IMG/VR virus record: IMGVR_UViG_3300031696_001368
Span: 1-20,395 of that record
Strand: one strand, 5' to 3'
Source of the DNA: a virus
Length of the DNA stretch: 20,395 bases
Shown: positions 1 to 13,581 of the stretch, in pieces
Position numbering within the stretch: the first letter of the stretch is position 1
How the letters are laid out: each line of letters opens with the position of its first letter
Position numbers and translations under genes: made by a program
The notes under the pieces: model-generated
What the model saw: only the letters and a program-made list of their open reading frames with translations
Told to the model about the DNA's origin: nothing
Databases searched by the model: none

Positions 1-1187
1 CAGTTATACCTCCATTTAACCCTGCATTTGTAGACAGAACAAACGTTACTTATAACAATTCAACGCAGGATGGAGGGAGGAATCGCCCTAATGTCCCACC
101 GATTCATAATAATTTAAGTCAAGATGGTGGTAGGTATAGTAGTAATACTAGCCCTCTTTATAATAATTTAAGTCAAGATGGTGGTAGAAATCAGGCAACT
201 TCCTCCGTAACACCCATGAGTCCTGCAGAAGAAGCTGTAGTTGATAATGATATTGAATTGGCTAGAATCCAACAAGCAATGAGCGGAGTGGATGTTAATC
301 CAGAGTTTGTCCAAAGAGCTATGCAAAATGCTAATGCTAATGGCGACACTAGAGTAACACCTCAGACGCTTGCGGGAACTCCTTCTATCATGGACCGCAT
401 GAGTCAATGGGGCGACGATGTATGGGATAGTTTCTTTGATGATGAAATCGGTGATGCATCGGTAGCTCAGGCTAAACAAGAGATCAACCCTATAGCAGAA
501 GGTGATATTGGTAATCAGGAATACAAAGGCCCTGCAGATGAAGGTCTAGGTACAGTCAGTATCTATGGGCCTCTGAAAGGCGCTAAGGTCGCAGGTTCCT
601 TTATCAAGTCTGCGTTTACAGCAGGTAAGAATGCATATAAGAACAGACCTAAACCACAACCCATCGTAGAGAAGCATGTTAATCCAACTCCTTTGCTACC
701 AGCACCTAAGCCTGTAGTAGTACCAAGGATAGGTAATAACATGCCATCCACTGTAGTAAAACAATCTATAAATACAGGTAAGAACGTTGTACCCCGTAAC
801 ATGAATCGTTGGGGTGAACCTATGCAGAGGTATGCACCAAAGCCCAAGATTGGACCCGGTGTACCTACTATAGCAGCAGTTACTAATCAGCAAGAACCCC
901 CTATGGGGCCTACTATTGACATTACATACAAACCTGATGATGTCGTACCTGTAGTACCCCCAGTAGATATGCCACAGAATGGTGGCCCAGACAGGGGTGG
1001 TTATCCAAATAAGACCAGACTACCTAATAACGCTAACGCAGCACCACAACGCCCGGGTTATAATGTTGTTAAATCTGGCGACGGTAGCCCTGTGAAGGCA
1101 GGAGGAGGCGGCTACATGTGGTCTAAGGATTATCAGCACCCTATCTGGTCACAAGAAGGTATATGGAAACAAGGAGGGAATGGCTAA
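1..1187 (+). CDS. Pro/Asn/Gly-rich putative virion protein, 5'-truncated by window edge
   Basis: The reading frame is open from base 3 to the TAA at 1185-1187 (about 394 codons), so the ATG at 216 is probably internal and the true start lies left of the window. I do not recognise a family. The visible part opens with three 18-residue repeats containing a QDGGR core, followed by an acidic stretch, a short hydrophobic/glycine segment encoded near 560-630 (IYGPLKGAKVAGSF), and a long Pro-, Asn- and Lys-rich low-complexity tail ending in a Trp-rich segment (MWSKDY, IWSQEGIW). Low complexity and repeats suggest an extended virion or tail-associated protein rather than an enzyme. It is first of four same-strand genes; its stop overlaps the start of the next gene by one base (TAATG), so the two are probably translationally coupled. 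Function is inferred only from position. Confidence 0.75.
   Translation, partial: VIPPFNPAFVDRTNVTYNNSTQDGGRNRPNVPPIHNNLSQDGGRYSSNTSPLYNNLSQDGGRNQATSSVTPMSPAEEAVVDNDIELARIQQAMSGVDVNPEFVQRAMQNANANGDTRVTPQTLAGTPSIMDRMSQWGDDVWDSFFDDEIGDASVAQAKQEINPIAEGDIGNQEYKGPADEGLGTVSIYGPLKGAKVAGSFIKSAFTAGKNAYKNRPKPQPIVEKHVNPTPLLPAPKPVVVPRIGNNMPSTVVKQSINTGKNVVPRNMNRWGEPMQRYAPKPKIGPGVPTIAAVTNQQEPPMGPTIDITYKPDDVVPVVPPVDMPQNGGPDRGGYPNKTRLPNNANAAPQRPGYNVVKSGDGSPVKAGGGGYMWSKDYQHPIWSQEGIWKQGGNG
51..212 (+). repeat. Three tandem 54-bp in-frame repeats (18 residues each)
   Basis: Units are 51-104, 105-158 and 159-212. Each encodes Y/H-N-N-x-x-Q-D-G-G-R followed by eight variable residues. Units two and three share an identical 28-bp stretch (106-133 and 160-187), while unit one has diverged at synonymous and non-synonymous sites. 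The period is a multiple of three and the repeats lie inside an open frame, so they are protein repeats. More units may lie left of the window. Confidence 0.9.
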
Positions 1188-2743
1188 TGGCAACTCAAAA
1201 TAATGCACCATTATCTGGTGGAACCACAAATTTATCTGGTGTGGGCACTTGGTTTAAAAAACACATACCCGGTTGGGACACGGAAGCCTATACTAATTAT
1301 AAGGCTAATCTCCCTGCTGGCGAGTATGCTATTAATGAAAATGATTGGATTAATCAAACTGCCGACAAGAAGATAGCAGCAGGCCATGCAGAGCATGTCA
1401 AGCAAGGTGGTACACTAAGCCTTGAGGAGTTCAGTCAAGGTATTAATTTAAACCCTATTATATCTAATTGGAATGATAACGATGTCCTCGACCAACGCAC
1501 TATAGAGGCAGCTAGGGTGGCAGCATCCGATAAATCCGAGGCTGCTGGCGGTGGTCGTATAAATAAGGGTGATTTCCAGAAAGAGGTAGATGCAGGTAGA
1601 ACAGTAGTACCGGGGTACAAGGTTGATGGCGATACTAGTAACTTCCTAGATGTCCAGAATAATGTAGCAGCAACCGTGGTACCAAATAGTCCAGAAGACA
1701 CTGGTACAGGGCAAGCCGATAAGTTCGACCCTATAACAGGTGAAGCAACGGGTGGTGACAGTAAAAGTTTAACCCCTGATGATTCTGATAAGGATGCAGC
1801 TAAAGGTATATTTGCTAAAGCTTCTGCTTTATTCGGTGGTAGTTTCAGTGAAGCTGAATTAAAACGAATGACATTATACACCATTGGTGGTCTAATATCC
1901 GGTGGGTCGGCTGGGGGTTCTTTTAAGTGGGCGGGTATGAGGATACTTGAGGAACAACAAACTACAGCTAAAAATGCTGCTACTTTAGGTGCAAAGCAAG
2001 CTGGCTTATTTAATAAAGCACCTAAACAGGTTAGAGTTGAGAGTGGTAGTGAACCTGTCCAAGCAATCTTTATGAATGGCCAGTGGTATGATGCAGGTAC
2101 TAAGAAGGTTCTAGAGGGCAAGATTGTTAATTGGGATGATAAGTATAGTATTAATGGCAATACTAAGGACTACAATGATCTCATAACATCTGCCATGACA
2201 GGTATTAAGGATGAGGATGGTAAGGATATAAAATTAGGTGCTACCAGCCATACTGTCGTCAACTCTTGGATGCGTCAGGTTCAAGAATGGAATTCCAAGG
2301 GTTACGGTGTCGATATAAACGATCCTGATACTCGTGGAGCATTCACTGTGGCCGTGGAGAGATCTTTGGCAGCTAATAAAAACTATGAGGAAGGTCGGAC
2401 TGATATGAAAGTCCCTGCTCATTTCTTCGAAGCAACCTTGATTCAAGGATTAGCCCCGGGTGGTGATAAGAACTTTAAAGATATTGGAGGTAACTACCTG
2501 AGTAACGAAGGTAATAAGGCCATGGTTGACAGCATAGACAGTATTATTAATAAAGGTCTAGCTGAGGCTAAAAAGAGAGGTAAGGGTGGTACAGTTAACC
2601 TAAACTCTGTTATGACTGCTATAAAAGGTGGATGGGGTAAGTTAACTGACAAAGAAAAGGAACAGTATAGGGTAAAGGCAGGTGTAGGCCGCTCTGGGTT
2701 CTCTACCTTTATAGAAGAACAGGCTTCTTCGTTCAATAAATAA
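1187..2743 (+). CDS. Putative internal virion or tail protein (518 aa)
   Basis: The start is placed at ATG 1187 (MATQNNAPL), not the in-frame ATG at 1163: a strong AAGGAGG lies at 1171-1177 with about 9 bases of spacing, and the ATG overlaps the upstream TAA. No enzymatic motif is visible. Residues about 1-210 are polar and acidic. A Gly/Ser-rich hydrophobic stretch follows at about 218-255 (TLYTIGGLISGGSAGG then KWAGMRILEEQ), and the C-terminal half is mixed alpha-type sequence ending in a Lys-rich region. A single glycine-rich membrane-prone segment within a large soluble protein is common in podovirus ejection or internal proteins, and the two genes downstream support that reading. A terminator follows, so it closes this transcript segment. 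Function is inferred from context; no homologue is firmly recognised. Confidence 0.8.
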   Translation: MATQNNAPLSGGTTNLSGVGTWFKKHIPGWDTEAYTNYKANLPAGEYAINENDWINQTADKKIAAGHAEHVKQGGTLSLEEFSQGINLNPIISNWNDNDVLDQRTIEAARVAASDKSEAAGGGRINKGDFQKEVDAGRTVVPGYKVDGDTSNFLDVQNNVAATVVPNSPEDTGTGQADKFDPITGEATGGDSKSLTPDDSDKDAAKGIFAKASALFGGSFSEAELKRMTLYTIGGLISGGSAGGSFKWAGMRILEEQQTTAKNAATLGAKQAGLFNKAPKQVRVESGSEPVQAIFMNGQWYDAGTKKVLEGKIVNWDDKYSINGNTKDYNDLITSAMTGIKDEDGKDIKLGATSHTVVNSWMRQVQEWNSKGYGVDINDPDTRGAFTVAVERSLAANKNYEEGRTDMKVPAHFFEATLIQGLAPGGDKNFKDIGGNYLSNEGNKAMVDSIDSIINKGLAEAKKRGKGGTVNLNSVMTAIKGGWGKLTDKEKEQYRVKAGVGRSGFSTFIEEQASSFNK

Positions 2744-2820: not shown

Positions 2821-5800
2821 ATGAATTTCGATGATATAATTAAACCCATCCCTACAGCCACCTACGACGATGTCAAGGAAGGCAGTAGCTTTGAAGGTGC
2901 TTATATCGATGCCGACACAATCAAAGATATCTCTACAGGCCAAGGTTATCGATTAGATACTTTTGATGCACCTGAAGTGTGGAACATGTCAAACGGTGTA
3001 CTTGTACCCGGTGAGGTAGGTGCATCAGAGTTGACAGCACAGACAGCTATATTAGCTAATCATTACGGCTTCAATAAGTTAATCACCAATGGTGAATCTT
3101 ATGACCGAAAAGTTGCTGATCTACAAGATGAGGGTGGTAGGAGTTGGTCTGAGTTTGTTGTAGAAGAGAGGTTAGCAGGCGCTAATCAGTATACATCTAA
3201 GTCTACTATAGACAATCGTATGCTTAACTCCTTCGTAGACTCTCTGAATATTATTGACCAAGGCACTGACCCAGCAGCCAGAGCTAGATTAGCTGTTGCT
3301 AATGCAATAAAAGATGTGGAAGGATATGCCCCTGTATTTGGTAAAGAAGCTGGTAATGAAGCAGAGTTTGCCCAAGGCCAGAACATGTATTCCCGTGAGT
3401 CTACCAATAAAATTGGTGAGCTACTTGCCACTGAAACAGACCCAGAAGAATTACAGAAACTAAGAGAAGCTTATTTCTATAGCAAGTGGGGTAAGAACCC
3501 ATTCACTAGTGTAGGTTCTAGGCGCAATGACCGTACTATAGACAACCAAGCTTACTTCCAGACTAGCACATCACTTACATTAGGTTTGGAAAATGCTGTA
3601 CAAGCTTTCTATGGTGTTGGTGAACTTACAGGTGAATCCGCAGGGTGGGATTGGTTAAAGGATAAGAGTAGTGCAGGTATAGCCCGTAGTGAGACCGCAG
3701 TTGGCGAAGAAGCTAATGTACTAAGTAGTTATAACGATATAGAGGGTGTTGGTGATGCATTCTCATGGATTACTAACAACGTAACAATGTCCCTACCCCT
3801 TATGGGTGCTGTAGTAGCTGGTGGACTTATAGCCGCTCCTCTAGGGCTTACAGGTGTTGCAGGTATGATGGTGGCAGCTACACCTTCCGCTGTATTAAGT
3901 ACAGGTTCTATATGGAACTCTATGCCTGACGGTGAGAAGAGTGCTGGATTAGCTGTGTTAGGTGGTTACGCTGTAGGTCTGTTAGACCGATTGGGTTTTG
4001 CAGGAGGCCTAGGTGGGTTAATAGGTAATTCTGCTAAATCAGCGGTGGAACGTGGTGCTCTAAAAGAAGTTCTTAGGGATATTAACAATAAACTATTCCA
4101 AGAACTAGTCACACCTACTACAATGGTTAATGGGGTATTAAGAACAGCCCTTACACCTGCACAAGCTGCGGCTAGGTTAACATCAGCATCTAAAGCACAG
4201 TTAGTTCAAATGGCTGATAACTTCGGCCAAGCTGCTAGTAAGAACCTACGTGATCTTAAGCTAGTCAAAGGGTCTATCAATCAGATAGTAACTTCGATGG
4301 GACGTGAGGCAGCTACTGAGACTGTTCAGACAGCTATTGAAGAAGTATCATCTGTATATGGCACTAGCGCTGAGTTAAATCCCGCAGCATTCAGAGAGGC
4401 TTTAATAACTTCTGCTGTAGTTGGTGGTGTATTCGGTGCTGGTTTTGATATGCCTAGTATTGCTAAACAGCATATTGATCGTAAAGATTTACTTCACAAG
4501 GTAGCTAATAGCACAACAACACTATCTGACATTGAAGAGTTTAGTCGTAGTGATCAGGAAGAAGCGTTAAGGAATGGCAAGACAGACAGGACTAATGACG
4601 ATAATTTAGGTGAGTTCGGAAAGAATAAACACAGCGCAGCCCCGGGCCACTTCAAAGAAGAAGCTGCTAAAGGTAAGGCTAACGCCAAAGCTGAGAGCAC
4701 AGTAGGCCGTATGGCCCGTACTCTTAAAAACACACCGGGAGCACCTTTTGTAGCCCATCTACTAAATATGGTAGATAAGATAGGGCTAAGGAATAAGGAT
4801 GGCACCCGTAACAGAGGTGTAACCATGCTAGCTAGCGTTCTAGGTGGTGTGAATATAAACTCTGGATACCATCATCAAGAGTATATACATAAACTACGTG
4901 GTACCTTGGTGTCTAAATTACCCTCAGCAGATTCAGTAGCAGAGAAATTAGGTACTAATGTACGTACAGCAAACAAAATGATGCGTAATGCAGTCGATAA
5001 CTATGTTGCTAAAGGTAAAGAGTATGATGGGCCTAAGGCTACTGAGATTAACGAGCTATTAGATTTGTACCGCCTAGGTCAATCTGAGATAACCAAAATA
5101 TTAGCTGATGAGGGATTGGACCTTAGAGCTAATGGCCTTACTGATGGTGGTCTTGACATACTAACAGTACGTCCTTTAGACCAGAAAGCTATTCGAGATG
5201 ACAGAGAAGGATTTAGAGAAATACTGTTAGATCTTGATGGTGGCTACGGTAAGATGACAGAGAGTACAGCCGACAGATATATCGATGAGATATTATCTAG
5301 TGATGGACAAGCAGCAGCTATGGACTTAAATGCCACATACCCTGCCTCCAGCGGTGTACTATCGCCTTATATGAGTAAAGATTTACTAACCGCATATAGA
5401 TCTGAACTAGAAGGTGCAGCTAAACTTGCAGGTAATAATAAGTATCTAGGTAAGGACTTTGCTATTCTAGACAGTGCCTTGGCTACTATCAAAGCAGAAG
5501 GTGCTACTGATGCACAAGTGGCTGAACTAGCCGCAGATATTCAGGATTACTTAGAGATAGCTAATGGTGACTATGGTGCATGGAGTAGTCCTTGGGTGAA
5601 GAACGTACAAGACAATCTAATACTCGTGACATTCTTACGTGGTATGGGTTTCTCAGCTATAGCTTCTTTCCCTGAAGGTCCATTGACTATGTTAGGTGTG
5701 CCTGAACACATTGCATTTAATCATATTAAGGAACATGCCAAGTCCTCTGCTAGAAGTATACTAGACTACATGAACTTTCTTGCTAGTGCGATCCCAGGAT

Positions 5801-6813
5801 CCCCCATCCCTAGGAAAGTAGGTAACAAAGTATCTATGGCACAACTAGATAGCTTGGGCTATCAAAGTGGCCACTCCTCTGCTGTTAAACAGATGGGTGT
5901 AGAGATATCTGGGTGGAAACAAAAGCTAGCAGAAATGTATGCTAAAGCTGTAGGTCTTAACAATATCACTGATGTTACCCGTGGTATGCGTGGTTCAATG
6001 GCAGCTGATGTTATGCGTCACTATGCTGACATCCTTGCGGTAGACCCTGAAAGTAAAAGTAATATGGCGAGGGAGGCTTACAAGGAGCTTAGAGGTTTAG
6101 GTGTTGATGTTAATTTCTTAGTAGGTTTGCATAAAGAGTTTATGGACAACCCTGATGTGAACATAACTATGGAAGATAACGTGAAGCTACAACAACAGGT
6201 AGAAATAGCTTCTATGCGTTTCATAGATCAAGGAATGGTTAACCCATTACCCGGTCAGGTACCTAAAGGTTATAAGCACCAGAAGTTGGCATTACTTAAC
6301 CAGTTCCAAGGCTTTATAGCTAACTTCACATCTAAGATATTACCTCGTATAATGAGTAATATAAAGAATGGATCACCCGGTGTGACAGCTGGTGCTGTGA
6401 GTGTATCCTTGTCAATGATTGCAGCCGCCTTTCTAGGTACTATGTTGCGAGACATGATGAAGTACGGAGAACCCACGCCTTATCTAGATGATTATGATAA
6501 GTTTAGACGTGTATTATTTTCTAGTGGTCTACTGGGTACAGGTGAACGTATATGGTCTGCTATAGACCCTCTTTATGGTGCTGGTATCTTCCAACCCGGT
6601 AAGGATGCAACACTCTTCGGTACTATGGGCCACACATTTGAAGGTGTGGTAGGTGAAGCAGCTGCATGGGGTGTGGTAGAAGATATAGCTAGTGTTGGTT
6701 ACAACAGTATACTTGGTGAAGGTGAGGATGCTGCTAAGAGCGCTCTAAAATTAACCCCTATGGTTGGTACGGTCAATCAGCTTAGGGATGGAATAATTAA
6801 CAGTATATTTTAA
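2821..6813 (+). CDS. Large ejection-type internal virion protein with N-terminal SNase-like nuclease domain (1330 aa)
   Basis: Residues about 20-125 match the staphylococcal nuclease fold in order: D30-A-D32-T33 (SNase D19/D21/T22), R44 in YRLDTFDAPE (SNase R35), D49 and E52 (D40, E43), and R96 in SYDRKVADL (R87). The calcium-ligand and catalytic Arg/Glu/Arg positions are therefore all kept. After this come long helical sequence, membrane-prone Gly/Ala segments at about 322-360 and 372-402, another at about 527-541, and one near the C-terminus at about 1190-1208 followed by LRDMMKYGE. Length and position resemble T7 gp16 (about 1318 aa), which carries a transglycosylase N-terminally instead; no such domain is seen here. 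Likely role (inference): ejected with the DNA, inserting in the envelope, with a nuclease activity toward host or competing DNA. The 1255-aa gene follows after 13 bases. The SNase match is good; the overall role is inferred. Confidence 0.8.
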   Translation: MNFDDIIKPIPTATYDDVKEGSSFEGAYIDADTIKDISTGQGYRLDTFDAPEVWNMSNGVLVPGEVGASELTAQTAILANHYGFNKLITNGESYDRKVADLQDEGGRSWSEFVVEERLAGANQYTSKSTIDNRMLNSFVDSLNIIDQGTDPAARARLAVANAIKDVEGYAPVFGKEAGNEAEFAQGQNMYSRESTNKIGELLATETDPEELQKLREAYFYSKWGKNPFTSVGSRRNDRTIDNQAYFQTSTSLTLGLENAVQAFYGVGELTGESAGWDWLKDKSSAGIARSETAVGEEANVLSSYNDIEGVGDAFSWITNNVTMSLPLMGAVVAGGLIAAPLGLTGVAGMMVAATPSAVLSTGSIWNSMPDGEKSAGLAVLGGYAVGLLDRLGFAGGLGGLIGNSAKSAVERGALKEVLRDINNKLFQELVTPTTMVNGVLRTALTPAQAAARLTSASKAQLVQMADNFGQAASKNLRDLKLVKGSINQIVTSMGREAATETVQTAIEEVSSVYGTSAELNPAAFREALITSAVVGGVFGAGFDMPSIAKQHIDRKDLLHKVANSTTTLSDIEEFSRSDQEEALRNGKTDRTNDDNLGEFGKNKHSAAPGHFKEEAAKGKANAKAESTVGRMARTLKNTPGAPFVAHLLNMVDKIGLRNKDGTRNRGVTMLASVLGGVNINSGYHHQEYIHKLRGTLVSKLPSADSVAEKLGTNVRTANKMMRNAVDNYVAKGKEYDGPKATEINELLDLYRLGQSEITKILADEGLDLRANGLTDGGLDILTVRPLDQKAIRDDREGFREILLDLDGGYGKMTESTADRYIDEILSSDGQAAAMDLNATYPASSGVLSPYMSKDLLTAYRSELEGAAKLAGNNKYLGKDFAILDSALATIKAEGATDAQVAELAADIQDYLEIANGDYGAWSSPWVKNVQDNLILVTFLRGMGFSAIASFPEGPLTMLGVPEHIAFNHIKEHAKSSARSILDYMNFLASAIPGSPIPRKVGNKVSMAQLDSLGYQSGHSSAVKQMGVEISGWKQKLAEMYAKAVGLNNITDVTRGMRGSMAADVMRHYADILAVDPESKSNMAREAYKELRGLGVDVNFLVGLHKEFMDNPDVNITMEDNVKLQQQVEIASMRFIDQGMVNPLPGQVPKGYKHQKLALLNQFQGFIANFTSKILPRIMSNIKNGSPGVTAGAVSVSLSMIAAAFLGTMLRDMMKYGEPTPYLDDYDKFRRVLFSSGLLGTGERIWSAIDPLYGAGIFQPGKDATLFGTMGHTFEGVVGEAAAWGVVEDIASVGYNSILGEGEDAAKSALKLTPMVGTVNQLRDGIINSIF

Positions 6814-6826
6814 GGAGTAATAACTT

Positions 6827-9800
6827 ATGCCAGTGTTTACAGGCAAAGTAGGCGGACAAGCTAATTCTGGAATGTCATTACAAGAGCAAATGTTGGCATA
6901 TCAAAGACAACAAGAGGCAGCGGGTGTCCAACAAACAGCAGCACCATTAGCAGGTGCAAGTGCAGACTTACCTGTACCCAATATTGGTATTGCAAACAAT
7001 GCAACTGTTGGAGGGTTCGTAGAACAATCTGTAATCCCTGCAATGAACGATGCGGGTCTTGATTCCGCAGGGATAGCCAACCAACGTACTGAAGGTAGCT
7101 TCGAAAACTATGGCAGTAATAAGAGGTTTGCAGGTAATGACCCTGAAACTGGACTACCTGTTTTTGAGGATGTCAATAAAGATATGTATGGGCAAGCCGC
7201 CAAGCCTAACACATTACCTGATACCTATGGTATGCTTAATGATCCAGTTAAGATGTTCGGTGGTGATGAGAAAGCCAGTCTACCTATGACTGAGATCAGT
7301 AATGTAGGATCTATATGGGCCAATACAACTAAATGGTTCTATGATGCTGTAACAGAGAAACCTGATAGTGATTTCAGTGTAGCCTTAGGTAAATTAGCTG
7401 GTACTGATTCTCAAAGTCAAGCACAGATGATGGAAGCTATGGGTGTTATCGGTTCTCTAGCTGTTGCCTCCACAGTTAAAGCACAAGAGAGATACACAGT
7501 AGGTCGTGAAGAGATGGATGAATCCGAATCTTATGCACCTATTGCAACGGAAGAGGGTGCAGCGGTACAGGTAGGCCTCGCACCTGATGACTTTATGAAA
7601 GCTACAGGTGGATCTGTTGCTAAGATGTTACAGATGAGAGGCATTGATGTCAGCCATTTAACACCTAGAGATAGGGATGCCTTAGGTGCTAAGTTATTGG
7701 AGCAGCAGTTAGCTAATGGTAATCTAGTAGAAACCACTAAGAATGGCAAAGTTAAATTAACACCTACTGAAGCAGCTCTGATGAGTCCTTTAGGTGATAT
7801 GGCCGATGATCTTATGGGTACCAACCTTAAGGCAGGTGTGAGTGCCATTCCACTTAACGCAGGTACACCTATCGGTGTGAACAAAAATACTGCACAATTA
7901 AGTGGTAATAATAATGTAACAGGTGGTGTAGTAGGTAACGTTGTTAATGAAAGAGCTAAGGATGCATTAGGTCACGTAGCTATAGGTATTGACGAGACTG
8001 CGTTGAAGCTTATTGCACTACAAATAGTAGATCTATTAGGTAAACGTGTTACTCCCATGAATATGGAAGGTGGGCCAGAAAGTAGAATAACTTACAATTC
8101 TAGTGAATTCGCCAAAGCCTATAAATTAGATGAGAAGAGTGCATTAGCTACTTATCGATTAAAATTATTTGATATGGCAGAGAACCCTACCCCAGCACAA
8201 CAAGAAGCAGTACTCAAAGATGTTAACCAGATCAATGAACAGAGACTTACCACCCTTATCTCTCGATTGAATGAACAACTTAAATTAACATCAGATGGTT
8301 ATGCTGGTACCTTGAACAAATTCTACAATTCCTATAGTACAGGTGGTATGAATGGACGTATGTTACCTAATACATTCAATGGCAACTATACAGGTGATAA
8401 GGAAGTAGCTCGTAACGTACACAAAGCTAAGATTAACCCAAGGTTATCCATTAATAAATCTAATTGGACTGACCACAATAAGAAGGTCAATGCAGCAGCA
8501 TCAGGTTTAATAGCTGTTGAGGGTGATAACGTAGCATGGGAGAAAGCATTAGATTCTATGCCAGAATCTGTAGCTGCTGAAATATCTTTCCGTATTGTTA
8601 TGATGGGTAAGTTGTTGAATAAGGACAAGGCCTTACATGCAAAGCTTCTGAAAGATAATAGTGGCAACTCACTAAAAGAAGGACAAGTACTACGTAACCT
8701 TACTATGGGTATGCTGTATAAAGCTTATGTGAACATGAACAGGCAAGAAGGTGATCCTCTTTATGTGATACGTAAATACGCAGATGAAGGTAAGCGTATA
8801 AAAGCTGAATTGGATGGTGCACCAGATATTGTGGGTACCTTGGCACCTCTATCCATAGAGAAGAATGCGACAGGCCGTCAAAAGACTAAGGCAGCAGTAC
8901 AAGAATGGGGTAGTTATGTAGCACCTCGCATGGATGCCATTGCGGAATTTACAAATGACAGAGGCGAGATGAGATCAGATTTATCTCTACGCTTGAACGC
9001 CATGAAGTATATGGAAGCTTATAACGGTGATAGCTCCTCTAACTTTGAACTAGATTTTGAAGTAGAACTGGACTCGACCCAATCTGGCCCATTACTACAA
9101 TCTGTAATGGCCCCAGCCGGTAATAAGTTTAATAATGTACAGGATCGTTTAGGTTTTGCTACAGGTACCACTGATGGTGACTTACGAGCATTGTCTAGGC
9201 AGGAATTCGAGAACGGCCACATCACTGAGCAGGCTTTCAAAGGAGACCCGGCTACTGAAGATCTATGGAAGAACTTCATGGCCAATGTGTTCAATGACCC
9301 AGAAGATGGTGGTATAGCTAAGGAACTTATTCTAAAGCAACCACAAATGCAGTACTTCTATGGTAAACCTGCGAATATGTTTATGGACCTAGCAGGTCAA
9401 TTTGAAGCTAACTTTAGAGATAAGCTAAATGCAGCCATGCCTCATCGTAGTGTAGCTGATCGACGGGAGGATGTTAGAAAGCTAATACAGCAAATGCTTC
9501 AGGATGATGTGTTTGACGTAAGCTATGCACAGTCTATGAAGAGTATGGCTCTTATGCTTGCAGCTACTGGTGCTGATCTTCAGATACAAGGGCCTCATGG
9601 GCCTATTGATCTGACTATTGGTAGTATGCAACATATAATTGATATGGCTGATAATTTGACAGGTAAGTCAGATGTTCAAGCATTGAAGTTACAGATGATT
9701 GATATCTATAATGCTGCCACTGATAAGACTACTCAATATGCTGTTAAGGAGAGGTCTTTCAACCCCTCGACTGCAAAACCTATTGGCTATAACCCCAATA

Positions 9801-10594
9801 TGCCTATTGGCGGTAAGAACCTAAGGACAGGCCCGGGTCAGAAGCTTCAGGATTCTATAGGTGTATTACTGGTCCACCATCTTGACGCGGCTCTCATGAA
9901 CTTCACTATCTCTCATGTTAATAGGAATCAACCTAGACATAATCCTTACCCTGCTAAAATCATTTATGATGCTATCATCACTAATGCTAGCGGTTTCTTA
10001 CGTTATAGTCATACTTATAATAACGTAGCAATACCTAGTATTCGGCAGTGGGATTTACAGAAGTCTATGGGTGATGCTGTCGCCAAGAGTAAGAAGAAGT
10101 TCACAGCTGAACGTCTAGCCAACAAAAATGGTACTGTACCCATCGGTGTCATTGAAGGTTCAGATGGACAAGCAAGTCCTGTTAGTTATCATTCAGCTGT
10201 TACTGGCTGGTTAGATGATGCTGTCAGATACATGAACCCCAAGAGGGAAGATGCTATATCTGATGCAGATTTCACCCAGAAACAGAAGGATGCTAGAAGG
10301 AACGCTAGTATTGTTAGCCATGCAGTTAAGTATGGTTACAAACCACCTGAGTTTTCTGAGGGGTATCTAGCTAATGGTGTAACAGAACCCGGTGAGGTGA
10401 TGATACTTAATGCTGGCGTTAGAACTAGTATGAGAATGAGTATGTTAGCCTATGCTGATTTGTTAAATCAAATAGCATCAGCTGATAATGCAGCAGGTCG
10501 TGCCGCAAGTTGGCGCTCCGAGTCTGCAAGGAAGCGTGTAGGCCAGAGGCAACAACATGTTGCCCCTAAGATAATCGCTAACCTAACTATGTAA
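6827..10594 (+). CDS. Putative virion-encapsidated single-subunit RNA polymerase, N4 gp50-like (1255 aa)
   Basis: Motifs of the T7/N4 RNA polymerase family appear in order. A GR element is at 509-513 (NGRML, R511; T7 R425), though the usual T/D four before R is G507. Motif A is D749-S-T-Q-S-G (T7 D537-G-S-C-S-G). Motif B is K837-Q-P-Q-M-Q-Y-F-Y845-G, with the same eight-residue K-to-Y spacing as T7 K631/Y639 and N4 K670/Y678. A VHHLDAALM element at 1016-1024 matches T7 VHSQDGSHL. Motif C is Y1047-D1048-A (T7 HDS, D812). The first ~350 residues are low-complexity and may be a packaging region; the C-terminus is basic. It sits last in the virion module beside an ejection-type protein, as expected for a polymerase carried in the capsid. 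SD AAGGAG at 6814-6819. It is far from the 803-aa T7-type polymerase in sequence, so it is not a simple duplicate. The R511-D749 gap (238) is larger than in T7 (112), so an insertion is likely. The assignment rests on motifs read by eye; the alternative is a large ejection protein without polymerase activity. Confidence 0.75.
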   Translation: MPVFTGKVGGQANSGMSLQEQMLAYQRQQEAAGVQQTAAPLAGASADLPVPNIGIANNATVGGFVEQSVIPAMNDAGLDSAGIANQRTEGSFENYGSNKRFAGNDPETGLPVFEDVNKDMYGQAAKPNTLPDTYGMLNDPVKMFGGDEKASLPMTEISNVGSIWANTTKWFYDAVTEKPDSDFSVALGKLAGTDSQSQAQMMEAMGVIGSLAVASTVKAQERYTVGREEMDESESYAPIATEEGAAVQVGLAPDDFMKATGGSVAKMLQMRGIDVSHLTPRDRDALGAKLLEQQLANGNLVETTKNGKVKLTPTEAALMSPLGDMADDLMGTNLKAGVSAIPLNAGTPIGVNKNTAQLSGNNNVTGGVVGNVVNERAKDALGHVAIGIDETALKLIALQIVDLLGKRVTPMNMEGGPESRITYNSSEFAKAYKLDEKSALATYRLKLFDMAENPTPAQQEAVLKDVNQINEQRLTTLISRLNEQLKLTSDGYAGTLNKFYNSYSTGGMNGRMLPNTFNGNYTGDKEVARNVHKAKINPRLSINKSNWTDHNKKVNAAASGLIAVEGDNVAWEKALDSMPESVAAEISFRIVMMGKLLNKDKALHAKLLKDNSGNSLKEGQVLRNLTMGMLYKAYVNMNRQEGDPLYVIRKYADEGKRIKAELDGAPDIVGTLAPLSIEKNATGRQKTKAAVQEWGSYVAPRMDAIAEFTNDRGEMRSDLSLRLNAMKYMEAYNGDSSSNFELDFEVELDSTQSGPLLQSVMAPAGNKFNNVQDRLGFATGTTDGDLRALSRQEFENGHITEQAFKGDPATEDLWKNFMANVFNDPEDGGIAKELILKQPQMQYFYGKPANMFMDLAGQFEANFRDKLNAAMPHRSVADRREDVRKLIQQMLQDDVFDVSYAQSMKSMALMLAATGADLQIQGPHGPIDLTIGSMQHIIDMADNLTGKSDVQALKLQMIDIYNAATDKTTQYAVKERSFNPSTAKPIGYNPNMPIGGKNLRTGPGQKLQDSIGVLLVHHLDAALMNFTISHVNRNQPRHNPYPAKIIYDAIITNASGFLRYSHTYNNVAIPSIRQWDLQKSMGDAVAKSKKKFTAERLANKNGTVPIGVIEGSDGQASPVSYHSAVTGWLDDAVRYMNPKREDAISDADFTQKQKDARRNASIVSHAVKYGYKPPEFSEGYLANGVTEPGEVMILNAGVRTSMRMSMLAYADLLNQIASADNAAGRAASWRSESARKRVGQRQQHVAPKIIANLTM

Positions 10595-10657: not shown

Positions 10658-10936
10658 TTACTTAGCGTTTAATTGTTTCAGGGAGGCTGTTACTCGTTTA
10701 TTAGCCTCAGCCCTATGTTCACTGGCAGTCTGTTTAGCCTTCTTATCAGGTACACCTTGAGCTACCAATTCCTTGTAAGTCTCTGCATATTGCGCATTAA
10801 CTATAGCATTGTTTATAGCGGGGGTGTAAGCGACAGCAGGGTCTAGGTTATAGATCTTCGCCAACTCCATATCATCTACATCTCTACGGAATATGTTGTG
10901 GCTCCGGCCCTTATCAATCAATTGTTCTTCAAGCAT
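10658..10936 (-). CDS. Small unknown protein, last gene of the minus arm (92 aa)
   Basis: The start is placed at ATG 10936 (MLEEQLIDKG) because GGAG at 10947-10944 sits seven bases upstream; the longer frame from 10981 has no comparable site and would overlap the upstream gene by 53 bases. The protein is soluble, charged and probably helical, with a Lys/Ala-rich C-terminal half (VPDKKAKQTASEHRAEANKR). No domain recognised. It overlaps the stop of the preceding gene by eight bases, so it is probably translationally coupled, and it ends at the bidirectional terminator. Its function is unknown; a small T7-type accessory or host-interaction protein is a guess only. Confidence 0.7.
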   Translation of the reverse strand: MLEEQLIDKGRSHNIFRRDVDDMELAKIYNLDPAVAYTPAINNAIVNAQYAETYKELVAQGVPDKKAKQTASEHRAEANKRVTASLKQLNAK

Positions 10937-11159
10937 TAGTACTCTCCATCCTCCAACTATTAAGTAAACCTTGGTCTGCAAGCAACAGTTGGATATGCTT
11001 CAGGGCTTTAATGGGGTTCTCATGTGTAGAAATATACACATCATTAATATCTCTACTATACATCAGCTCAGGGGGTAACCCTTCCTTTGTACAGTAGGTC
11101 TCATCATCTATGTTCGTGAACCCACGAAGGTACAGATGATTATAATTTTGCTTAATCAT
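10929..11159 (-). CDS. Small unknown protein downstream of the RNA polymerase (76 aa)
   Basis: Starts at ATG 11159 behind a very strong AAAGGAGGTG that lies immediately after the stop of the RNA polymerase gene, so expression follows the polymerase closely. The product (MIKQNYNHLYLRG...) is rich in Asn, Tyr and acidic residues, without signal peptide, membrane segment or metal-binding Cys/His pattern. I recognise no family. Small genes adjoining a phage RNA polymerase sometimes encode host-takeover factors, but nothing in this sequence indicates that. Confidence 0.7.
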   Translation of the reverse strand: MIKQNYNHLYLRGFTNIDDETYCTKEGLPPELMYSRDINDVYISTHENPIKALKHIQLLLADQGLLNSWRMESTNA

Positions 11160-11169
11160 AACACCTCCT

Positions 11170-13581
11170 TTAACAGAAGAAGTAATCAGAGTCTAGGACT
11201 TCTGATACATCTAAGGTACCTTCTGTTGGTAGTTTAATACTGCCCATATCTGATTTAGATAGGACGTTATCTCTAATATGTTCGAACTGACCTCTAGGGC
11301 CATACATATCTACGAATACTTCTTTGATAAGACCGGATAGCTCTTCCACATCACATGCATGAGTAGCAAATGAGTCATGAACAGGTGCTATATGCCCATC
11401 AAACTTATCCATGACTAATGACATATGAGCAGCATCTTGTGAATGAATATAGTTAGGTGCTATACCCGATGCATACCCTTGCTTGTCAGGGATTGTGGTC
11501 TCTACAGCTAGAACATGCTTCAGTCTATTACGGCTACTAATGCCCTTTAATACTGAATCAATCTTCCATTCCTTCATAAGGTAAGACCTGTATTTCACAG
11601 GAAATCCTGATGGAGAAGTCCAATTCAATTCCCTGGCTCCATTACCCTTAGCAATGTAACTGGCTATCATATTGAACTGTTGGCTTAATCTATCTAGCTC
11701 TAGTATATCCTCGTTAGACTTTAATTTCTTACGTTGGATAACCTTCTTAGCAGCTATAAGTTTACTACGATCATGCTTAGATACAGCCTCACCAGTTAAC
11801 TTGTGTAGATAACCTGTTTCACCCAATTCATAAGACGCGAGCTGTTGTAGGAAAGCTTTAACAGTATCTGCACTAGGGCATACCTTATTGATAGCTTGTA
11901 TAACAGACCTACTAAGTAGAGTGCAATCAAACATATCAATATCGTATTTGCTAGTGAAACCCTCGGTATAACAATCTTCATACATGTTATCCGCTATGCG
12001 TGAGGTTCCGGCTGCATACTGTCGTACCATAGTGGCACGTTTAGTAATGCCCTTTCTAATGTGTTTCATAGGTATCTTACGGGGGGTAAACCAATCAGGG
12101 AGGTTATCCACTAATTCCTTAGCCACCTTAATATACAGGTCACATGGTACATCTGTCTTAGTAAGACCTACCATAGCACCAGTGATAGCATCCTTACTCA
12201 TAGCAGCACTATGTTGGATACCATTACACATACCATCAATAGGTATGGGTAGATATGAGATAACTTCTTCACCTTCTTCACATGAGTTCCATGCCAACCA
12301 CTCGCAGGCACATGCATAAAAGACTATAGGCTTCTCACAATTAATGAATTTACCGTTAAGAGCAGTCTCAAGAACCATATCATAATTGTTCTCTAACCAC
12401 CTAACTCTATCATTAAGGTTCATCTTATCTACAGAGATAGATTCTAACCCTTCCGATTCTAACAGTGCTTTGTAGTTATACTCACACCAAGAAGGGATAG
12501 ATTCTACTGCATACGATTCGTTGAAGCTATTAGCCGTGTGTATGGCTAACCATGTAACTCCCTTAGGGGTCAGGGGCTTTCCTTCTCCAAATTGTAGCAG
12601 GCCTCTAGCTAGATCACCTCCTTGATAATTAAGGAACTGCTCACGGATATAGTATCTCCCTCTATAGTCAGTATCCACTAACTGAAAGAAAGGTTTACCA
12701 TATCCTTTAAGGGTGCTAGCCTTCTCTTTAATGATTTGGAACTCATAGTTCTTACTACGAGCCTTTAATACTTTCTTCTTCTTGTTCCAAAGATCTACCT
12801 CTACAGCATAGACTTCCTTAGTCTCTAGAGTTTCGTTCTTCTTCAAGTTATTGTAAGCCTTACGTACAGCCAACATAGAACCAGCCTCGGGTAAAGCTGT
12901 TTCCTCATGTAAGAAGTAATCAGTATTAGCTATCATAGCCTCATAGACGCTCTCATTGATAGCCCATTTCATCTTGTTAAGAGAATTGAGTGACCTAAGC
13001 CAAGGTGCATCAATATACTGAGGGAATTCCCGTTCATCCTGCATACCCCAACGTTTAATCGCTGGGTATCCTAGGGTGTTCAGCTCAGTTATGCTCTCTG
13101 GCTTATGTAGAACAGTGTTGGGTAACAATGCTCCAACTATAGCTATGGGTACATCACTGATAAAGCCCCAGAGAGGGCCTGGAGTGACCACATAGGGTGC
13201 TGTGATCGCTCTATCAGAGAATCCTTCTTCACGGAATGTAGTTATACAATCCTTAGCTTTAAATGCCTCAAGGAACAGGTCACCTAACCGGATGGCCTTA
13301 TCCTTAGGTAGTGGTTCACCACCCATGTAAGCACTCAGGGATTCGCCTATTGCTACAGATACAGATGTTAACTTAGCCATACCAGCTATGTCACCGTTGG
13401 CATCACGAGAGAATTTTAACTGTATCTTCTCAGATGCTAGGTATACCATAGTAGGTAGTTTAAGCTTGTACTCGGGGTAGAAGGCTAACACTATACAACC
13501 AGTGTTACCTCTAGGGCTATTGATATTAGCCTTTTCTATACGTTCAATCAGATACTCAGCTATTTGTTCGATTAAATTCAT
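11170..13581 (-). CDS. T7-type single-subunit DNA-directed RNA polymerase (803 aa)
   Basis: All catalytic motifs are clear: D305-Y-R-G-R309 (T7 DxxGR); motif A D449-G-M-C-N-G-I-Q-H; motif B K514-R-A-T-M-x-x-x-Y522; the IHSQDAAHM element at 712-720; and motif C H735-D736-S-F. The C-terminus DYFFC resembles the T7 DFAFA foot. It is shorter than T7 RNAP (883 aa), mostly in the N-terminal domain. One oddity: the residue after the motif B tyrosine is alanine (Y522-A523-A-G) where T7 has glycine (Y639-G640). It lies near the 3' end of the minus operon, unlike T7 where gene 1 is early and proximal, so something else must transcribe at least ten genes before it. It probably transcribes late genes from phage-specific promoters, including the plus-strand virion module (inference). 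Confidence 0.97.
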   Translation of the reverse strand: MNLIEQIAEYLIERIEKANINSPRGNTGCIVLAFYPEYKLKLPTMVYLASEKIQLKFSRDANGDIAGMAKLTSVSVAIGESLSAYMGGEPLPKDKAIRLGDLFLEAFKAKDCITTFREEGFSDRAITAPYVVTPGPLWGFISDVPIAIVGALLPNTVLHKPESITELNTLGYPAIKRWGMQDEREFPQYIDAPWLRSLNSLNKMKWAINESVYEAMIANTDYFLHEETALPEAGSMLAVRKAYNNLKKNETLETKEVYAVEVDLWNKKKKVLKARSKNYEFQIIKEKASTLKGYGKPFFQLVDTDYRGRYYIREQFLNYQGGDLARGLLQFGEGKPLTPKGVTWLAIHTANSFNESYAVESIPSWCEYNYKALLESEGLESISVDKMNLNDRVRWLENNYDMVLETALNGKFINCEKPIVFYACACEWLAWNSCEEGEEVISYLPIPIDGMCNGIQHSAAMSKDAITGAMVGLTKTDVPCDLYIKVAKELVDNLPDWFTPRKIPMKHIRKGITKRATMVRQYAAGTSRIADNMYEDCYTEGFTSKYDIDMFDCTLLSRSVIQAINKVCPSADTVKAFLQQLASYELGETGYLHKLTGEAVSKHDRSKLIAAKKVIQRKKLKSNEDILELDRLSQQFNMIASYIAKGNGARELNWTSPSGFPVKYRSYLMKEWKIDSVLKGISSRNRLKHVLAVETTIPDKQGYASGIAPNYIHSQDAAHMSLVMDKFDGHIAPVHDSFATHACDVEELSGLIKEVFVDMYGPRGQFEHIRDNVLSKSDMGSIKLPTEGTLDVSEVLDSDYFFC

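Follow-up and report, generated by a model that had tools for sequence, protein, structure and literature searches.

A predicted compact virion-type RNA polymerase of the T7/N4 fold at the end of a phage virion gene block

The DNA analysed here (hereafter the window) is a virus record of 20,395 bases, probably derived from a marine phage. Its 1255-codon plus-strand gene most likely, with a probability of roughly 0.86, encodes a compact virion RNA polymerase having the fold of the T7 and N4 enzymes, which would be packaged in the particle, ejected into the host and transcribe the early genes. Homology with the T7 and N4 polymerases, a shared fold, catalytic residues, a conserved gene slot and a near-zero cysteine content were all established computationally, as described below.

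According to open reading frame (ORF) calls and family searches, the window consists of two convergent gene blocks. The plus strand carries an open-ended ORF (394 codons) and, downstream of it, genes coding for proteins of 526, 1330 and 1255 aa, the last one closing the virion block, while the minus strand encodes a T7-type RNA polymerase (RNAP), a DNA primase/helicase, a RusA-like nuclease, an exonuclease, a family A DNA polymerase and a ssDNA-binding protein. The genes of the 803-aa T7-type RNAP and of the 1255-aa protein are convergent, and a terminator-like site was looked for between them and none was found. The relevant features, in window coordinates, are:

3–1187, plus strand: ORF for a cysteine-free virion-block protein of at least 394 aa, its 5' end lying beyond the window
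1163–2743, plus strand: 526-aa cysteine-free virion-block protein, no family match
2821–6813, plus strand: putative ejection protein of 1330 aa, without cysteine (match to phrog_6958, 'virion structural protein', E 6.8e-17)
6827–10594, plus strand: predicted compact virion-type single-subunit RNAP, 1255 aa, no cysteine, starting with ATG
8357–8359, plus strand: R511 of the (T/D)xxGR motif, equivalent to N4 R424 and T7 R425 (R in 36/36 members, residue pairing)
9071–9073, plus strand: D749, motif A catalytic Asp, equivalent to N4 D559 and T7 D537 (D in 36/36, residue pairing)
9335–9364, plus strand: motif B, K837 to Y845-G846, equivalent to N4 K670/Y678 and T7 K631/Y639 (K/R in 35/36, Y in 35/36, G in 36/36)
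9872–9898, plus strand: VHHLDAALM element (aa 1016–1024), counterpart of T7 VHSQDGSHL (motif and profile alignment)
9965–9970, plus strand: Y1047-D1048, motif C catalytic Asp, equivalent to N4 D951 and T7 D812 (D in 36/36, residue pairing)
10934–10944, no strand: point where DNA identity to relatives, covering the replication block, stops and the divergent virion block starts (DNA comparison)
11170–13581, minus strand: first, non-virion T7-type RNAP, 803 aa, 14 cysteines (PF00940, E 2.5e-58; phrog_414, E 7.3e-101)

The 1330-aa neighbour has two hydrophobic segments (aa 321–339 and 1187–1205) and its place in the gene order is kept in relatives; when it was considered as a homologue of N4 gp51, gp52 or gp53, no homology was detected by profile comparison.

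A previous reading, made from the sequence alone, had proposed that the 1255-aa protein is a second single-subunit RNAP. Indeed, in the ORF translation N509-G510-R511, D749-S-T-Q-S-G, V1016-HHLDAALM-1024 and Y1047-D1048-A all occur at the residues it had named, K837 precedes Y845-G846 by the eight residues it had claimed, and D1020 and D1048 are 28 residues apart, against 25 for the T7 counterpart. It had also conceded two weak points. The glycine (G507) at the T/D position of the T/DxxGR motif falls at a site that is variable across the family, and the closest full-length relative of the window protein (L013, 35% identity) has D-I-N-G-R. The gap between GR and motif A is 238 residues long, compared with 135 in N4 and 112 in T7, and since it ranges from 165 to 248 residues family-wide, the larger insert is a family trait. 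A loose pattern of the ordered motifs was found in 27 of 36 members, in none of 20 members of the 1330-aa neighbour family and in 0.6% of shuffled sequences; the motif set of the 1255-aa protein exceeds chance. As a single sequence, the protein had no match in Pfam, PHROGs or PDB sequences.

The same slot, at the end of the virion block and opposite a T7-type RNAP gene, was recognized in about 40 loci, occupied by highly divergent proteins which are unnamed or 'hypothetical' in databases. A tblastn search of 50,697 annotated phage genomes retrieved a sole match (E 2e-3), gp33 of Roseobacter phage CRP-7 (QBQ72826.1, 1235 aa, 'hypothetical protein'), with approximately 24% identity to the window protein over the core; the same search with four other members did not retrieve any full-length relative. 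The CRP-7 layout is that of the window, with large virion-block genes and a convergent T7-type RNAP after them, and gp33 has the same slot and neighbours as the window protein, differing from it in the motif B lysine, which is replaced by arginine. The CRP-7 paper (PMC6918029) describes, in its main text, only the T7-type RNAP of the two polymerase candidates. Further loci were collected with three queries, namely CRP-7 gp33, the T7-type RNAP of the window and a wider RNAP alignment, reading in each case the slot opposite the RNAP. Among the newly read slots, 32 had an ORF of more than 700 codons; all of these contained the pattern [VILFA][YHFW]D[AGSN], and 31 contained [KR]x7YG. Direct searches with one subgroup led to 30 viral contigs, partly from the same loci as the slot set, and to one contig binned in a Bacteroidetes MAG. 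The extent of divergence is illustrated by locus L018, whose T7-type RNAP is 90% identical to that of the window and whose slot protein matches the window protein without significance (23% over 238 columns). Two members, L064 and L065, seemingly contain a NADAR domain inside the polymerase.

Few positions withstand this divergence. Among 34 aligned members, having 9–36% identity to the window protein (residue numbers are those of the full window protein), only R511, D749, G776, G846 and D1048 are invariant, with G655, R787 and Y845 nearly so. Five invariant columns, including the GR arginine, the motif A Asp, the YG glycine and the motif C Asp, also resulted from a 28-sequence alignment centred on the L018 subgroup. 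When 36 members were aligned, R511, D749, G846 and D1048 were found in each of them and Y845 in 35, position 837 being occupied by lysine (26 members), arginine (9) or glycine (1).

The link with known polymerases was assessed by profile-profile comparison (hhalign), whose E-values refer here to single pairwise comparisons, not to a database-wide search. The family matched nine N4-type vRNAP polymerase domains with 98.2% probability (E 5.9e-14, 728 columns) and 16 T7-type RNAPs, including T7, SP6, phiKMV and Syn5, with 98.0% probability (E 2.4e-13, 616 columns). On equal footing, the N4-type against T7-type comparison gave 97.1% (E 6e-11), so that the compact family is linked to either group as well as the two groups are to each other. 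The residues highlighted by the sequence-only reading fall in register in these alignments, window residues 511, 749, 837, 845 and 1048 being paired with 424, 559, 670, 678 and 951 of N4, which are its published catalytic residues (PMC2784036), and with 425, 537, 631, 639 and 812 of T7. As controls, neither the reversed profile nor any of 24 column-shuffled profiles exceeded a score of 18.2, the true comparisons reaching 138 and 55, and the probability was below 1% in comparisons with the 1330-aa neighbour family, ICP2 gp6, N4 gp49 and N4 gp51–53. Against the whole PDB sequence set, the family profile gave no significant match (T7 RNAP, E 1.4–1.9), and a profile built from just the two sequences of the nearest subgroup gave no signal with N4 or T7, a signal appearing once relatives were added; the N4/T7 link thus depends on the wider family.

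Structure prediction led to the same superfamily. The AlphaFold model of residues 60–1255, obtained with a 34-row alignment, reached a pLDDT of 65.6 and a pTM of 0.66, with low confidence for loops and for an N-terminal stretch of approximately 100 residues. The best 50 PDB matches listed by Foldseek were all single-subunit RNAPs (E 1.7e-8 to 9.4e-6, probability 1.00), namely yeast and human mitochondrial RNAP, T7 RNAP and N4 vRNAP, and the best matches among viral models were mostly named RNA polymerases, including N4-type vRNAPs. VIA-align gave Z values up to 15.1 for the window model, with Z 14.8 for T7 (8dh5; rmsd 4.2 Å over 516 residues) and Z 11.2 for N4 (2po4). The L018 model (pTM 0.67) likewise had single-subunit RNAPs as its top PDB matches, with Foldseek E-values down to 1.2e-12, and VIA-align Z values of 18.7 for yeast mitochondrial RNAP and 17.2 for N4 mini-vRNAP (4.8 Å over 602 residues). 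A palm/fingers/thumb fold of the single-subunit RNAP superfamily is therefore predicted for two members of the family; because the alignments behind them share members, the two models are not fully independent. A confident fold devoid of a polymerase core, the outcome that would have contradicted the sequence-only reading, was not obtained, the predicted fold matching single-subunit RNAPs. Together with the mapping of the N4 and T7 catalytic residues, this supports the proposed polymerase identity of the 1255-aa protein.

The four plus-strand proteins contain no cysteine in 3,505 residues, 1255 of which belong to the putative polymerase, in comparison with 1.5–1.7% cysteine in the minus-strand RNAP, primase and DNA polymerase. 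The rate in eight minus-strand replication-block proteins (36 cysteines in 2,773 residues) predicts 16 cysteines for the 1255-aa protein, and the Poisson probability of finding none is about 1e-7. The depletion extends to the whole compact family (3 cysteines in 45,724 residues, 36 members) and to the 1330-aa neighbour family (2 in 27,382), against 55 in 3,201 residues (1.7%) in four T7-type RNAPs of such phages; N4 gp50 has none in 3,500. In N4-type vRNAPs, the lack of cysteine has been suggested to be important for host entry (PMC2784036), and the near absence of this residue in the compact family fits ejection through the tail. In the window, in CRP-7 and in relatives, a late block ending in the vRNAP-slot gene faces an early/replication block, the same order being found in N4. 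Cysteine depletion and gene position both strengthen the idea that the protein may be packaged and may transcribe on entry.

These data also bear on three other explanations. Since the 1255-aa gene lies in the virion block and its product has no database match as a single sequence, it might be taken for an ordinary internal virion protein, similar to T7 gp16, with coincidental motifs; this is the least credible explanation, contradicted by the fold matches and by profile matches that bring the catalytic residues into register, neither of which the controls reproduce. Single-subunit phage RNAPs are, on the other hand, mostly enzymes expressed during infection and not packaged, and the window protein could be one of them, active but located only incidentally in the virion block. 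Such an explanation is hardly favoured either, considering that the adjacent gene already codes for a T7-type RNAP, that the gene ends a block of cysteine-free virion proteins and that near-total cysteine loss is a feature common to N4 vRNAP and not to expressed RNAPs.

Slightly less improbable, but still unlikely, is that the protein retains the polymerase fold as an ejection protein which has lost RNA synthesis and serves in DNA delivery only, for instance by gripping the DNA or acting as a plug. The whole sequence is diverging extremely fast, and the lysine at position 837, essential in T7-type enzymes, is an arginine in 9 of the 36 members. However, the window protein retains this lysine, and the residues kept invariant in 34 sequences include both catalytic aspartates, the arginine of GR and the glycine of YG, the opposite of the pattern expected from loss of catalysis. 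A compact, packaged virion RNA polymerase accounts best for these observations.

The similarity to gp50 of coliphage N4 (Schitoviridae) concerns most of the polymerase domain, that is the central mini-vRNAP, in both profile and fold, the catalytic residues of T/DxxGR and of motifs A, B and C, and the absence of cysteine, and the N4 genome and the window phage each encode also a second, T7-type RNAP. In other respects the two proteins differ. N4 gp50 (3500 aa) comprises a membrane-spanning N-terminal domain, the polymerase and a C-terminal domain with HExxH (PMC12633501), whereas the window protein is about one third of that size, with no HExxH and no hydrophobic segment, thus being devoid of the N4 membrane and HExxH domains; no similarity exists between the two as single sequences, and they occupy separate deep branches. 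In a tree built on 480 profile-aligned columns, the compact family fell outside both the N4 clade (100% support) and the T7-type RNAPs (100%), its own monophyly having a support of only 86%. With neither the N4 architecture nor nesting in either clade, the proteins were filed as a separate compact virion-type single-subunit RNAP lineage, and a simple gp50 homologue was rejected on the basis of tree and architecture. Compared with T7 RNAP, the window protein shares the predicted fold and catalytic residues, as it does with mitochondrial RNAPs, but it is approximately 370 residues longer, about 10% identical, encoded in the virion block and cysteine-free; a copy of the adjacent T7-type RNAP was rejected, as that enzyme falls in another clade. 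The odds appear about even that the compact proteins add a third deep clade to the T7-type and N4-type among phage single-subunit RNAPs, and that they are the minimal virion RNAP.

In N4, the promoters of early genes are formed by short hairpins whose loops have 3 bases (PMC4496689, PMC12633501). No clear excess of 3-base-loop hairpins was observed in the early regions of relatives, the L111, L115 and L116 regions being set aside because they came from the wrong side of the contig; the window itself probably has no early region. Four hairpins were counted in the L117 early region, against a shuffled maximum of 3, and one hairpin is common to L112 and L118.

On the model of N4 (PMC4496689, PMC12633501), we infer the following course of infection. 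The compact polymerase would be synthesised late and enter the capsid together with the ejection proteins encoded beside it; at infection, it would be threaded down the tail into the host along with the DNA. The 1330-aa protein may be co-ejected, its two hydrophobic segments and lack of cysteine making a channel or membrane component plausible. Once inside, the ejected polymerase would be enzymatically active and would transcribe the early genes ahead of any phage gene expression, as N4 gp50 does, and middle and late transcription might afterwards pass to the T7-type RNAP (11170–13581), with a division of labour between the two polymerases.

N4-like vRNAPs had been found only in N4-like phages and prophages, nearly always as fusions with metallopeptidase domains (Iyer et al. 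2017, PMC5512222). In a 2023 IMG/VR survey, vRNAP-like proteins shorter than 2,500 aa were dropped, removing nearly all T7-like RNAPs (PMC10654107), and with such a cut-off the compact family would have been missed. A 2,083-aa vRNAP has been reported in Alteromonas phage R22Y (PMC11705849), which was compared with an Alteromonas schitovirus, and StenR_269/Zobellviridae proteins have been proposed as vRNAPs from their size, helices and lack of cysteine (PMC10747016); these candidates either fall below the classical N4 group in size or do not belong to it. ICP2 gp6 of the Zobellviridae was rejected as a relative, having no profile match to either the compact family or N4. No description of the compact family was found in searches of the open-access literature in PubMed Central.

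The compact versions occur in phages outside the N4-like group, and their lineage has a cultivated member, CRP-7, which makes the start of transcription in such phages directly testable. The C-terminal domain of N4 vRNAP is autoinhibitory, and a natural 'mini-vRNAP' without it would be useful for mechanism work. If the compact proteins do form a third deep clade and the minimal virion RNAP, members that seem to bear a NADAR domain might transcribe and counter ADP-ribosylation defence as one ejected protein, the giant gp50 of N4 would have been elaborated from an ancestor resembling a mini-vRNAP, and virion-carried transcription would be widespread in aquatic podoviruses rather than confined to N4-like phages.

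Across the replication block, DNA identity between the window and five related phage loci (L013, L016, L018, L024 and L026) was about 75-90%, ending abruptly at window 10934-10944 in all five, and the virion block was mostly unalignable with the same relatives, the identity of the virion polymerase to them ranging from 35% down to below 25%. Judging from these alignments, the convergent junction between the two blocks appears to be an exchange point of entire virion modules. A small gene, with a recognisable relative in another locus, lies beside the T7-type RNA polymerase gene:

Window 10658-10981, minus strand: small protein gene, directly downstream of the T7-type RNA polymerase
L033:7105-7512, minus strand: relative of this small protein, DDMExxK...FTPxIN-like

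The motif B lysine is essential in T7-type enzymes. Arginine replaces it in most of the subgroup comprising the virion polymerase homologue CRP-7 gp33 and its relatives (L002-L011, L044-L048), which nevertheless retains the remaining catalytic residues.

Candidate regulatory elements were also detected in relatives:

L112:1434-1450 and L118:3261-3277: hairpin TATAAGTATAACTTATA, 7 bp with 3-base loop, identical in both
L109:1436-1626: intergenic array of ATAAAACCTTGG-type repeats, CRP-7 early region

The hairpin, upstream of a 341-aa gene in both relatives, is a candidate promoter hairpin; however, the surrounding intergenic sequence is also conserved between them. The array, holding 4 of the 5 repeat matches in the scanned CRP-7 stretches, is a candidate promoter or origin element.

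In two relatives, the virion polymerase seems to contain a NADAR domain (PF08719) as an insert separating motif B from motif C:

L065:12632-16657, minus strand: virion polymerase with putative NADAR domain (PF08719 E 1.3e-3, short of Pfam's cut-off)
L064:3773-7927, minus strand: virion polymerase with putative NADAR domain (PF08719 E 1e-4, likewise short of it)

The L065 region also matches phrog_1017 (E 1.2e-8). Since NADAR proteins are linked to ADP-ribosylation, a counter-defence role for these polymerases, once ejected, is conceivable.
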